Source: a virus. Taken from it: 38,033 bases of DNA. Both the position numbers and the translations under genes were made by a program. Location: IMG/VR virus record IMGVR_UViG_3300037278_000088, positions 1 to 38,033 of that record. The stretch is one strand, 5' to 3'. Positions 7,305 through 38,033 of this stretch are shown piece by piece. The notes under the pieces were generated by a model that worked only from the letters and a program-made list of their open reading frames with translations, ran no database searches and was not told where the DNA came from. How positions within the stretch are numbered: position 1 is the stretch's first letter; every line of letters begins with the position of its first letter.

Positions 7305-7604
7305 ATGGATTTCAATTTCAATACAACCATTACCGCAGCAGCCGGAATAGCACCAATCGTCGTATTAGTACTCACAGAGCTTCTAAAACTCGTTCCAGTG
7401 CAGTTTACTAGTAAATACCCAGCATGGGTCAACTTAATACTGTCGTTCGTGGCTACACTCATCGTGGTACGTCCGAGCTTCACATTTACAAGCTTAGGGG
7501 CATTCGTGGCAGTATTGCTCTATATTTGTGTTGTTGCAGCAATTGCGTACAATCAGTTCACTTCCAAGCTCAAAGGTGGCAACACCACCCCACCAACAGC
7601 CTAA
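7305..7604 (+). CDS. Holin (three predicted membrane helices)
   Basis: The 99-residue hydrophobic protein has three predicted transmembrane segments at about residues 9-29, 40-56 and 63-83, a short polar N-terminus and a Lys/Thr/Pro tail. This matches small phage holins, which open the cytoplasmic membrane to release the endolysin. The start is the ATG at 7305 with a good GGAGG 9 nt upstream. It is the last gene of the rightward late operon and is followed 10 nt later by a strong terminator. The assignment rests on topology and position, not on a conserved motif. Confidence 0.75.
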   Translation: MDFNFNTTITAAAGIAPIVVLVLTELLKLVPVQFTSKYPAWVNLILSFVATLIVVRPSFTFTSLGAFVAVLLYICVVAAIAYNQFTSKLKGGNTTPPTA

Positions 7605-7613
7605 CTGCTAAAT

Positions 7614-7645
7614 AAAAGACTCACATAAGCTCGTGAGTCTTTTTT
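7614..7645. terminator. Bidirectional intrinsic terminator between convergent operons
   Basis: AAAAGACTCAC (7614-7624) and GTGAGTCTTTT (7633-7643) form an 11-bp stem with an 8-nt loop. T runs flank both sides, so it can end the rightward lysis operon and also stop leftward transcription that passes the small-RNA terminator. Confidence 0.9.
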
Positions 7646-7653
7646 AATATGAG

Positions 7654-7827
7654 AAAAAGCCCTTTAACGTCGGGCAAGACGGATTGTAGATCAGAGTAGT
7701 AACCGTACAATCATGTGCGTAACCCTGCACGGGAGATTACAGAATCACCCCCTGTGTCAGTGGACAGTTTTCGCTCGTAGCGATCATAGTTGAGTTCCTT
7801 TCGACACAGGGAAGCGATCTGCTTCTA
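7654..7827 (-). ncRNA. Candidate structured small RNA of about 174 nt
   Basis: This stretch between the convergent operons has no substantial ORF but is dense in helices. Read leftward it has GAAGC/GCTTC (7811-7825); a 9-bp CCCTGTGTC/GACACAGGG pair (7750-7758 with 7803-7811) enclosing GGAAC/GTCC and TCGCT/AGCGA; a bulged GTAA..CCC/GGG..TTAC hairpin (7719-7740); a 7-bp GATTGTA/TACAATC pair (7682-7688 with 7706-7712); and a terminator, GCCC/GGGC (7659-7662 with 7672-7675) followed by TTTTT. TATAAT (7839-7834, minus strand) precedes the inferred 5' end, with no good -35. It contains a 16-codon ORF (7787-7737) with AAAGGAAC upstream. I recognise no known RNA family. Confidence 0.55.
7737..7787 (-). 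CDS. Possible 16-residue leader peptide inside the structured RNA
   Basis: MIATSENCPLTQGVIL starts at ATG 7787 with AAAGGAAC 6 nt upstream. Both the ribosome site and the ATG are buried inside the enclosed helices of the surrounding RNA, so translation would compete with folding. It may be a regulatory peptide or chance. Confidence 0.2.
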   Translation of the reverse strand: MIATSENCPLTQGVIL

Positions 7828-7833
7828 GAAAAG

Positions 7834-7839
7834 ATTATA
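7834..7839 (-). promoter_or_regulatory. Leftward -10 element of the candidate RNA
   Basis: TATAAT on the minus strand, 7 nt upstream of the first helix of the structured RNA. The hexamer at -35 spacing is AAGTCA, a poor match, so the promoter may need an activator, or the RNA may be processed from the long leftward transcript. Confidence 0.35.
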
Positions 7840-7842
7840 CAC

Positions 7843-7935
7843 CTAATTTATTGTTCTGACTTTAATTTCTTTTTTAAGTGTAGCTACAGTTTTGTCAAAC
7901 TCGAAATACAACTTAACTCTAGATAATTTACTCAT
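7843..7935 (-). CDS. Small basic hypothetical protein (30 aa)
   Basis: MSKLSRVKLYFEFDKTVATL begins a 30-residue, Lys/Arg-rich ORF ending at TAG 7843. It lacks a clear Shine-Dalgarno sequence, but a TATAAT lies at 7952-7947 on the same strand, 11 nt before the ATG, so a nearly leaderless transcript is possible. It would be the last gene of the leftward operon. No family recognised. Confidence 0.4.
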   Translation of the reverse strand: MSKLSRVKLYFEFDKTVATLKKEIKVRTIN

Positions 7936-7955
7936 ATTGTCTATCTATTATACGC

Positions 7956-8138
7956 CTATTTTCCCTCACTCTTTTGTTCTAGGGCTGATAACTCGGTGAT
8001 ACGGTCTGCTGCACGTTTAACGGCTATTTGCGTCTGTTCGTAAAGATTATCAGCATTCGGTGTTCCTACTGCCTCACCAGCCTTATACCCAATGTATGCA
8101 ATCTGTTGCAATAGTTCCTCTATTGGTATAGTAGTCAT
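7956..8138 (-). CDS. Small hypothetical protein (60 aa)
   Basis: The product (MTTIPIEELLQQIAYIGYKA at its start) is a helical, mildly acidic protein of unknown function. The ATG at 8138 overlaps the TGA of the methyltransferase-like gene as ATGA and has GGGGGA a few bases upstream; an in-frame GTG at 8150 is less likely. The GEAVGTPNADNLYEQTQIAVKRAADRI segment looks like two helices. It is coupled to the preceding gene and may assist it. Confidence 0.7.
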   Translation of the reverse strand: MTTIPIEELLQQIAYIGYKAGEAVGTPNADNLYEQTQIAVKRAADRITELSALEQKSEGK

Positions 8139-18775: not shown

Positions 18776-19228
18776 TTAAATTGCTTGCTTTACAAGCTTA
18801 ATGTTAATACTTAACTCGTCAAATTGACGTTGCAACCACGCAAAAACGCTTGTATCTTTGCGATTCTTACTTGCCATTTGCAACTCAATTTCATCACGCT
18901 CAACTTCTAAAAGACTTAAAAGCGTAAGCAACTTGTTTGAGTCCATTTGACTATTGTCTCGCAAAAAGCTTGTTGCTCTCTGCGATAGTTTGACACCAAT
19001 ATAGTTGTCGTAACCTATAGCGTTTTTAGCCCATGCAATGTGCTTAGCTGTACTACTTGAGTAACCTGCTACATTGATAAAGTTAAGCCCGCCAATTGCA
19101 AAAGCAAGTGGATAGTGATAACCATATGAATATACCACGCCTTGCATGTCAGTGAAAACTGAACTACATCGACGCTCTTTTGTTCCTATTGTGTTGTATG
19201 TTTGATATATAAATTGTGCTGTTGTCAT
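18776..19228 (-). CDS. First gene of the leftward operon: phage protein of unknown function
   Basis: The 150-residue protein has an N-terminal beta domain (CSSVFTDMQGVVYSYGYHYP then FINVAGYSSSTAKHIAWA) that resembles a widespread family in actinobacterial and other phages (DUF8033-like in my judgement), and a helical C-terminal half (NKLLTLLSLLEVERDEIELQ). A near-perfect AAAGGAGG stands 9 nt before the ATG at 19228, the best ribosome site of this operon. As the first early gene next to the control region, it is probably made first and in quantity. Function unknown. Confidence 0.72.
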   Translation of the reverse strand: MTTAQFIYQTYNTIGTKERRCSSVFTDMQGVVYSYGYHYPLAFAIGGLNFINVAGYSSSTAKHIAWAKNAIGYDNYIGVKLSQRATSFLRDNSQMDSNKLLTLLSLLEVERDEIELQMASKNRKDTSVFAWLQRQFDELSINIKLVKQAI

Positions 19229-19279
19229 TTCGTAACCTCCTTTGGCTGCATGTTATGACAGTGATATTTGATAGCGTAT

Positions 19280-19343
19280 TTGAAAACGCTAGCAAGCGTA
19301 TAACCTCCCTTTGGATTCTGTATACGTTTGCTAGCACTTTCAA
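19280..19343. repeat. Long imperfect inverted repeat (23-nt arms)
   Basis: The arm at 19280-19302 pairs with 19321-19343 with three mismatches, including the core GCTAGCAA; the 18-nt loop reads AAAGGGAGGT on the minus strand, i.e. a Shine-Dalgarno-like sequence exposed in the loop. It lies in the 5' leader of the leftward operon and may regulate it. Confidence 0.7.
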
Positions 19344-19344
19344 T

Positions 19345-19420
19345 GTTAAGCATTATTCTGATGGTGAAGTGGTGTGTTATACACGACCTTTTAGACTTGC
19401 CCATATTGTTAATGCTTAAC
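19345..19420. repeat. 11-bp inverted repeat GTTAAGCATTA/TAATGCTTAAC
   Basis: Perfect 11-nt arms at 19345-19355 and 19410-19420 enclose 54 nt. It stands immediately upstream (in leftward transcription) of the 23-nt-arm hairpin and could form a second leader helix or a pair of operator half-sites. Confidence 0.55.
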
Positions 19421-19461
19421 GTGCTAGGATATGTAAACTGTTAAAAAACGACTCGTCACAA

Positions 19462-19475
19462 TTGAGATATCTCAA
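19462..19475. promoter_or_regulatory. Perfect 14-bp palindrome TTGAGATATCTCAA
   Basis: A perfect dyad of the size bound by small dimeric regulators. It shares the AGATATCT core with the palindrome at 19551-19571, about 90 nt away, suggesting two operators for one protein; the ribbon-helix-helix protein at 13694 is a candidate. Confidence 0.5.
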
Positions 19476-19550
19476 CCGCTTTACCTTTACTACTTTTTAT
19501 CGATGTTGCCATCGTGATTGACCCATACCGTTAAATCAGTTGCGCTTTAC

Positions 19551-19571
19551 CATAGTAGATATCTACCTATG
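19551..19571. promoter_or_regulatory. 21-nt palindrome with AGATATCT core
   Basis: CATAGTAGAT and ATCTACCTATG pair over 10 bp with one bulged C. The central TAGATATCTA matches the core of the dyad at 19462-19475. Confidence 0.5.
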
Positions 19572-19781
19572 CGCTCAGTTTTATAATGTCTTCTAGTCGC
19601 TCCAGTCATGAGGATAAACACATCACAGGCTGTAATCGCCATGTGTCGTGTCCGAGTTGTAAATGTTCAGTAGTGATATTTATATCATGTCATCTACTTG
19701 ATACTAGTATATAGTATTTGATAGTATTATTCAAGGGTATTTTGTGGTAAGAGTGTAGTAGAATTAACAACTGGCTAATCT

Positions 19782-20000
19782 GTTACAAATGCTGTTTTCG
19801 TGTTACATTTGAAACATTGTATGAAATGAAGAACTGATATTGTCAAGCGATTTTGAGGGTTTGTAACGGTTTGTAACACATTTTATAACACATTTACTAC
19901 TGTTGTAACATTGTAACAGATTTTTCTCTCTATACGAAATATAATTGTATATATGTAATAATATGGCACAATGTGATTCTGAAGTGCCACATTGTTACAC
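19782..20000. repeat. Cluster of TTGTAAC iteron-like words
   Basis: TTGTAAC occurs at 19861-19867, 19871-19877, 19903-19909 and 19911-19917. Its complement GTTACAA is at 19782-19788, with close variants at 19802 (GTTACAT) and 19994 (GTTACAC). TAACACATTT is repeated at 19874 and 19886. Spacing of 8-10 nt between neighbours resembles initiator iterons. Confidence 0.55.
19816..19846 (-). promoter_or_regulatory. Leftward early promoter candidate
   Basis: On the minus strand TTGACA (19846-19841) and TACAAT (19821-19816) are separated by 19 nt, slightly long. It would give a leader of nearly 600 nt to the first leftward gene, covering all the hairpins described in this region. Confidence 0.35.
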
Positions 20001-20195
20001 TTGTAAAAAAAGCACCTATTTTTATTTTGTTGTTTACTTTGCTTGACATATGTGCTTACCAAAAACAAGCGCAATTGACCATGGCAACAAACGTATAAAA
20101 ATGTGTTAAATTTTCTTTGCGGGGGGCTTAGTTTTTAAAACTTTTTATCCGCCACATCGGGTCAATCTCTCCAAAAATATCAAAAATCACACAAC

Positions 20196-20216
20196 TTGAC
20201 AAAACTATAGTATAAT
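20196..20216 (+). promoter_or_regulatory. Rightward early promoter, -10 at 20211-20216
   Basis: A perfect TATAAT lies exactly 6 nt before the ATG at 20223, so transcription would start at or next to the A of the start codon (leaderless mRNA). A TTGACA at 20196-20201 is present but only 9 nt away, too close to serve the same -10. Confidence 0.45.
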
Positions 20217-20222
20217 ATGCTT

Positions 20223-36793: not shown

Positions 36794-38033
36794 ATGGAAG
36801 TCCCCCAACACTTTGATCCGAGGGGGTATCAATCTACTTATCTAACTGATATTCGTCCTTATTGGTTCGTCGTTACTGAATGGGCACGACGAGCTGGTAA
36901 GGGATTGACGACATTTGTTTACGCTGCACAGCGTATGGTTGAAGAGCCAATGGGTGTTATGATTATTTACCCTACTGCTGAGCAGGGATATCGTTCATTT
37001 TGGAATAACCTTGAAAATGACGGTTTTAAGACAATTGAGCATATTCCACCTGCACTGCGAAGCAGCTTCACTTCGACAAAAGATAATATGTCGATGTCGC
37101 TTCTAAATGGTTCGACACTCGATCTTGTTGGCGCAAACGCAGACCCTGAAAAGCTTCGTGGTAACAACATCAAACTATATATCCTATCTGAGTTTGTGGA
37201 TATCCATTCAGGTGTGTTAAGCATTATTATCCCTATTGTGATTGCTAATGGGGGTCAAATTATCATTGAATCCACACCAAAACAAGATGGTGTATCGGGT
37301 GCTACTTTTGTAAAACTTCGTATTGCAGCTGAAAAAGATCCAAAACAATATTCTAGTCGTGTTCCTGCAACTGAATACATGACTGCTGAACAGCTAGAAA
37401 TGGCTCGCCAACAGTGTATTGTTCAGTACGGTAATGACTTTATGTTCCGACAAGAGTATTTGCTTGATGAGGGTCAAGCACTTGAAACAAGCTACTACGG
37501 TAACATTATTAGTAGTAAACGGAAGTCTGGTCTTATCGGTAATCACCCCTATGATCCAAACTATCCCGTTTTCACTTCATGGGATTTAGGAGGGGGGGGA
37601 GACTCAACGGCTGGTGTATTTTGGCAATATTATAGAAAAGTGGATAAAGAAGGAAAGCCCTATGGTGCTAAGCTTCTGAACATCATAGATGCGTATGAGA
37701 CTCATGTTGTAAACGATAAGCTACTAGTCCAGTTTATTAATAGTCTGCCGTATGCTGGTAATTATGGGTATCACTTCTTCCCTCACGATGGTAGTAAGCG
37801 TGATAGCGACGGAATACAGCGTATGGTTAAGTTAAAGCAACTTGGATTACCGAATGCCACTCTAATTCGTAAAAGGCGTAAAGAAGCTGGACTCGACGAT
37901 GCAATTCAGCTTATGAATAGTCCGTTCGTGACTGCTGAAGCTTCTGGGACAACTAAGTTATTTGAGAAAATGGTGCTCTATAAACGTAAGTTCAATGCCT
38001 ATACTGGTGATTATGAGGGTGCAGAACACACGA
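36794..38033 (+). CDS. terL: Terminase large subunit, main part (continues at 1-282)
   Basis: The 464-residue packaging motor runs through the right end. The ATPase domain has Walker A WARRAGKGLTT (30-40; a Gly stands where Thr usually follows Lys), the coupling phrase GANADPEKLRG (113-123), and Walker B LYILSEF (128-134; Ser-Glu instead of Asp-Glu, as in some phage terminases). The nuclease domain starts SWDLGGGGDST (262-272), with the catalytic Asp in the position of RNase H-like terminase nucleases, then FPHDGSKRDSDG. An 8-G run at 37592-37599 encodes the Gly cluster and keeps frame. The gene follows the 208-aa gene by 6 nt. Confidence 0.88.
   Translation, partial: MEVPQHFDPRGYQSTYLTDIRPYWFVVTEWARRAGKGLTTFVYAAQRMVEEPMGVMIIYPTAEQGYRSFWNNLENDGFKTIEHIPPALRSSFTSTKDNMSMSLLNGSTLDLVGANADPEKLRGNNIKLYILSEFVDIHSGVLSIIIPIVIANGGQIIIESTPKQDGVSGATFVKLRIAAEKDPKQYSSRVPATEYMTAEQLEMARQQCIVQYGNDFMFRQEYLLDEGQALETSYYGNIISSKRKSGLIGNHPYDPNYPVFTSWDLGGGGDSTAGVFWQYYRKVDKEGKPYGAKLLNIIDAYETHVVNDKLLVQFINSLPYAGNYGYHFFPHDGSKRDSDGIQRMVKLKQLGLPNATLIRKRRKEAGLDDAIQLMNSPFVTAEASGTTKLFEKMVLYKRKFNAYTGDYEGAEHT
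37907..38033. repeat. Terminal direct repeat, right copy (assembly overlap)
   Basis: Identical to bases 1-127. The repeat lies inside the terminase gene, where no biological terminal repeat is expected; a coding-frame join supports a circular map. Confidence 0.95.

Follow-up and report, generated by a model that had tools for sequence, protein, structure and literature searches.

A candidate small noncoding RNA at the convergent operon junction of an uncultured phage genome

Our analysis suggests that an uncultured phage encodes a stand-alone small noncoding RNA at the junction of its two convergent operons. The candidate lies on the minus strand at 7651–7827 of the window, by which we mean the whole 38,033-nucleotide stretch of DNA that was analysed (IMG/VR record IMGVR_UViG_3300037278_000088). 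In the full form of this reading, to which we give a probability of about one in two, the RNA has its own promoter box and acts through pairing by a linker that contains the motif UCCC; that a discrete RNA comes from the region is, taken separately, probable. We prefer this reading because the predicted fold exceeds chance, no Rfam family matches, a promoter-like box is duplicated, terminators are present, and sister phages have RNA genes at the same junction. An unrecognised structured small RNA had been proposed here by the initial annotation. The fold, the lack of an Rfam match, the box, and the terminators speak for that proposal, while expression of the RNA, its independence from the early operon, and its pairing mechanism are what we infer. 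The window RNA belongs to no described family, though RNAs of this kind are already known.

The setting of the candidate is that of a compact phage genome. Because the first and last 127 bases of the window form an exact terminal repeat (1–127 and 37907–38033), the record of 38,033 bases is probably a complete, closed circular phage genome of ~37.9 kb, and its source is most likely an uncultured tailed phage. Early genes run leftward from ~19.4 kb down to 7.8 kb, and the rightward genes, for replication and structure, end with a holin-like gene (7305–7604, plus strand). Outward from the holin, the junction consists of a bidirectional terminator, the candidate RNA, a promoter-like box, a 30-aa micro-ORF, and the ORF of a 64-aa gene that ends at 7956. 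The leftward operon does not stop at 7956, and the initial annotation overlooked the micro-ORF (MSKLSRVKLYFEFDKTVATLKKEIKVRTIN, 7843–7935, minus strand). This ORF looks like a real gene, and the last one of the operon, as judged by its match to an ORF of another phage (L044:15242–15340; 58% identity over 26 aa, E 3e-6); the operon thus continues to 7843. In L032, L033, L035, L069, L071, L072, L077, and L080, LYFEEL-type relatives of the micro-ORF were found close to this junction. As a side observation, these micro-proteins of 30–40 aa share a K/F-LYFE(E) core and a basic tail and are mostly located near the convergent junction; besides the copies in the window and L044, they include L032:8455–8586(-), L033:3240–3335(+), where the apparent start is ATT, L035:2117–2239(-), and L077:8540–8614(-). 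Elsewhere in the window, 19150–20217 includes ~0.8 kb of noncoding DNA between divergent operons, and the genome's folding potential is highest near 19261, on both strands, with inverted repeats around GCTAGC.

The best sequence argument for a transcription start belonging to the RNA itself is a duplicated promoter-like box. The TATAAT that had been noted before the first helix is present at 7834–7839; by itself, the exact motif occurs at chance frequency, with 25 and 22 copies on the two strands (47 in the genome). It is part of a 16-nt box, AAAWTAGGYGTATAAT, that precedes both the candidate RNA (AAATTAGGTGTATAAT, 7834–7849, minus strand) and the micro-ORF (AAAATAGGCGTATAAT, 7947–7962, minus strand). 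These direct repeats are identical at 14 of 16 positions, and among the 1081 TATAAT pairs in the genome they are the most alike in the ten bases upstream (8/10). Such a duplication suggests two promoters of one type for two units, namely, the micro-ORF and the RNA. The box before the candidate offers a -10 only, with no usable -35 box ahead of its TATAAT.

At its 3' end, the candidate RNA has two successive intrinsic terminators. The GC stem with a T run that had been described there exists (7654–7675, minus strand), with GCCC and GGGC separated by 9 nt, pairing at 7659–7662/7672–7675, and T5 following. However, this is a weak terminator-like end with a stem of 4 bp, and it was missed by our terminator scan since the scan needs 5 bp. 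The bidirectional terminator stands as annotated (7614–7643, both strands), with an 11-bp perfect stem (7614–7624/7633–7643; mean pair probability, 0.98), and is common to the rightward (holin) operon. Because the bidirectional terminator is the strong one, the RNA may measure ~177 nt, to the proximal T run, or ~215 nt. Transcription would start at the phage promoter box that immediately follows the last early gene, proceed leftward, and stop at either the weak proximal terminator or the bidirectional one shared with the lysis operon.

The main and closest rival differs from a stand-alone small RNA only in the transcription start site. In this view, the leftward early operon would have a structured 3' UTR here that lacks a promoter of its own; its folded end would shield the mRNA and halt transcription ahead of the lysis operon, and processing could still release a small RNA from it. 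Several aspects of the layout fit: the stop codon of the micro-ORF at 7843 is three bases from the TATAAT and in the same direction, the terminator scan found no terminator between the micro-ORF and the RNA, the -35 box is absent, and the junction is closed by terminators in tandem. In addition, small RNAs derived from mRNA 3' ends are a class described in a review (PMC9438474), and as far as the class is outlined there, the window RNA resembles it in that it immediately follows the final gene of an operon and stops at that operon's terminator. Nevertheless, the promoter-like box is duplicated exactly before the RNA, and two RNAs of sister phages, RNA1 and RNA3 (see below), have promoter-like sequences of their own. 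On balance, we regard a 3' UTR as unlikely, although it deserves more weight than any other competing explanation.

We set the 5' end of the candidate at 7827, 7 nt past the TATAAT. The transcript so predicted has a minimum free energy of -56.9 kcal/mol, whereas dinucleotide-shuffled versions average -44.2 ± 4.0 (z -3.2) and 2 in 1000 of them do as well. It adopts one well-defined predicted fold of two stable stem-loops and a single-stranded linker. The 5' domain is a long hairpin (7739–7822) with helices of 5, 5, and 10 bp plus an apical helix. From the base upward, these are 7818–7822/7739–7743, 7813–7817/7745–7749, 7802–7811/7750–7759, and 7779–7783/7771–7775, with mean pair probabilities of 0.85, 0.88, 0.97, and 0.93, respectively. 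The 10-bp helix holds the perfect 9-bp pair that had been reported (7750–7758/7803–7811), extended by a G-U. Likewise, the reported 7-bp pair (7706–7712/7682–7688; 0.99) is perfect and, together with 5 bp at 7700–7704/7689–7693 (0.94), builds a 12-bp hairpin at 7682–7712. All of the features described by the initial annotation are on the minus strand where it had placed them.

The fold as a whole beats shuffled sequences, yet in this genome it ranks among the top few percent rather than standing alone. About 4% of random 177-nt segments of the same genome reach z ≤ -2.6, and after GC correction a 180-nt segment at the junction ranks 58 of 2524 by folding. Taken one at a time, parts such as the TATAAT and the 9-bp repeat occur about as often as expected by chance; perfect 9-bp inverted repeats (loop up to 60, merged) number 10 in the genome and 7–11 in shuffles. 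These frequencies would suit a neutral spacer between operons that folds without function apart from its terminators, as would the fact that no conservation is demonstrable, the only second record found being identical. However, the z-score of -3.2 belongs to a transcript bounded by a predicted promoter and terminator, and both the promoter-like repeat and the structured RNA genes of relatives at the same place argue against a spacer, which we consider quite improbable.

No Rfam family matched in the window at gathering level, and none matched over the candidate RNA up to an E value of 10, in line with an unrecognised RNA. Low-scoring Rfam matches, which were far below gathering scores, were treated as chance. 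ARAGORN found no tRNA or tmRNA within the window. Coding content at the candidate consists of short ORFs without known relatives and the 16-codon ORF that had been pointed out inside the folded part (MIATSENCPLTQGVIL, 7737–7787, minus strand). With AAAGGA 8 nt upstream of its ATG, and with tiny ORFs occurring at the junction, including the conserved 30-aa one that adjoins it, the transcript might be a tiny mRNA for a 16-residue peptide, with the helix as a ribosome-controlled leader. Yet we saw no homologue of the peptide, there is no downstream gene to regulate, and most of the RNA is outside the ORF, so that this explanation has very little to recommend it. Least probable of all is the RNA switch that had been proposed, in which ACGG (7703–7706) and CCGU (CCGT in the DNA, 7679–7682) pair in a fold that excludes the 7-bp helix: both tetramers exist, but the alternative of 4 bp with a 20-nt loop is not credible given the 0.99 pairing probability of that helix, since it must melt a 12-bp hairpin (0.94–0.99) and no gene downstream of the RNA could be switched.

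If the candidate is a stand-alone small RNA, then by analogy its most likely mode of action would be base pairing in trans. The linker AAUCUCCC (7731–7738, minus strand; paired probability below 0.4) places a UCCC in the predicted unpaired region between the two stem-loops and is a candidate seed. After folding into two stable stem-loops linked by this single-stranded stretch, the RNA could use its UCCC to pair with purine-rich ribosome-binding sites on mRNAs of the host or the phage; GGGAGAUU is the type of start-region sequence that would match the linker. LhrC, RsaE, and other small RNAs bind Shine-Dalgarno sequences through UCCC motifs that lie unpaired between their stem-loops (PMC4132741). 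The window RNA shares with these UCCC-motif small RNAs of Gram-positive bacteria, which also include RNAIII, a single-stranded UCCC between two stem-loops. In contrast to them, it has one such motif only, shows no sequence homology, and has no significant Shine-Dalgarno target among phage genes: when the linker was compared with all phage start regions, the best pairing to a ribosome-binding site was equalled by 19% of shuffled linkers, a figure that applies to phage genes only. Phage-encoded trans-acting small RNAs are known, for example, VpdS and PreS (review, PMC12197685). As predicted, the window RNA is similarly short, noncoding, phage-borne, and compact with terminator-like ends.

Our search for homologues used the holin, methyltransferase, Sak4, and portal genes, a tail-region gene, the micro-ORF, and an 18-mer of the RNA. 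The sole other carrier found was IMGVR_UViG_3300029908_000154, whose sequence is the same as that of the window throughout the 14.9 kb compared. No divergent homologue of the window RNA was detected by blastn and nhmmer over the fetched loci, by BLAST of 25 whole records, in phage and plasmid collections, or with the exact 18-mer over all viral contigs. Among named phages, no relative spanned the junction, and the phage collection matched the DNA methyltransferase gene only. Relatives anchored by the holin-like gene were 53–64% identical, and the scans with the portal gene, the tail gene, and the micro-ORF produced no junction from any closer relative. The closest loci by Sak4 (L056–L058, 76–80% identical) are on contigs that end short of the junction. 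L035 was considered as a second example of the window RNA and was left out as support because its LYFEEL micro-ORF is inside the folded transcript. Separately, a phage contig with a methyltransferase 68% identical to that of the window (L004; IMGVR_UViG_3300031918_000076) appears, from reading its sequence, to carry GroES- and GroEL-like genes (L004:4196–5909).

Sister phages reached via the neighbouring holin and Sak4 genes show that phages of this sort house RNA genes at the junction. Further RNA units occur there, between early operon and lysis genes, in one related group (L033, L069, L071, L072, L077, and L080). RNA1 was found in five phages (L077:8708–8763(+), L071:5466–5521(+), L069:14386–14440(+), L080:8869–8924(+), and L033:3112–3164(-)) and looks like an undescribed phage RNA family. 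It is a short hairpin that follows a promoter (TTGACA-17-TATGAT in L033 and TTGACA-17-TACTAT in L077). The core, AAUAUCAGCGUUCCAA..AUUGCUAUUCUC, hardly varies among members, whereas the stem of 9–10 bp does, with changes on both sides of pairs 2, 4, and 5; these pairs were checked by hand because the MAFFT alignment did not register the stems. RNA3 occurs in six phages (L077:8772–8950(-), L071:5531–5708(-), L069:14449–14600(-), L080:8930–9065(-), L072:11475–11595(-), and L050:1385–1585(-)). Across these six sequences its closing stem has two-sided changes at 5 of 6 pairs, and it is further characterized by CGCACC and C-rich CUCCCAAAACUCCACC motifs (not all in every member), an extended -10 promoter-like sequence, and a terminator. 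Given that the RNA1 and RNA3 stems were registered by hand in few sequences, their apparent compensatory changes are suggestive and do not amount to a complete statistical test. A third unit, RNA2 (L077:8955–9060(+), L071:5720–5834(+), L069:14600–14705(+), L080:9070–9172(+), and L072:11605–11695(+)), shares its promoter region with RNA3, from which it diverges, and ends in a terminator facing the lysis-side gene. It has a conserved GUGAGUU..ACAGAGGUGU, and its terminator loop mostly keeps UGCGAGG. None of the three matched Rfam at gathering level in a scan of the members other than L050.

RNA1 and RNA3 are like the window RNA in being structured noncoding RNAs with a promoter, located where the early operon meets the lysis end (RNA1 and most carriers of RNA3). 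RNA1 is also transcribed in the early-operon direction, whereas RNA3 runs the opposite way. Neither has detectable sequence similarity to the window RNA, and they are not its sequence homologues. Specifically, a model of RNA1 that was built without base pairs, and is thus a sequence-only test, recovered the five sister phages and nothing in the window up to an E value of 10, and sequence comparison gave neither a blastn nor a motif match to RNA3 at the junction of the window.

Annotations of uncultured phages seldom include small RNAs, since these produce no signal at the protein level and few closely related genomes exist. In our view, the site common to RNA genes, together with two covarying sister families, is a more interesting result than the window RNA itself. 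We tentatively propose, while thinking the odds somewhat against it, that across a broad group of uncultured phages the junction serves as a standing site for small RNA genes, with the window RNA, RNA1, and RNA3 as separate undescribed families that possibly act on host or phage ribosome-binding sites or time lysis, often beside a conserved LYFEEL-type micro-protein. Should such a site hold, it would provide a fixed address in many phage genomes at which to look for new RNA families, of which two already have putative compensatory changes in their stems, and how common regulatory RNAs are among phages would become directly testable.
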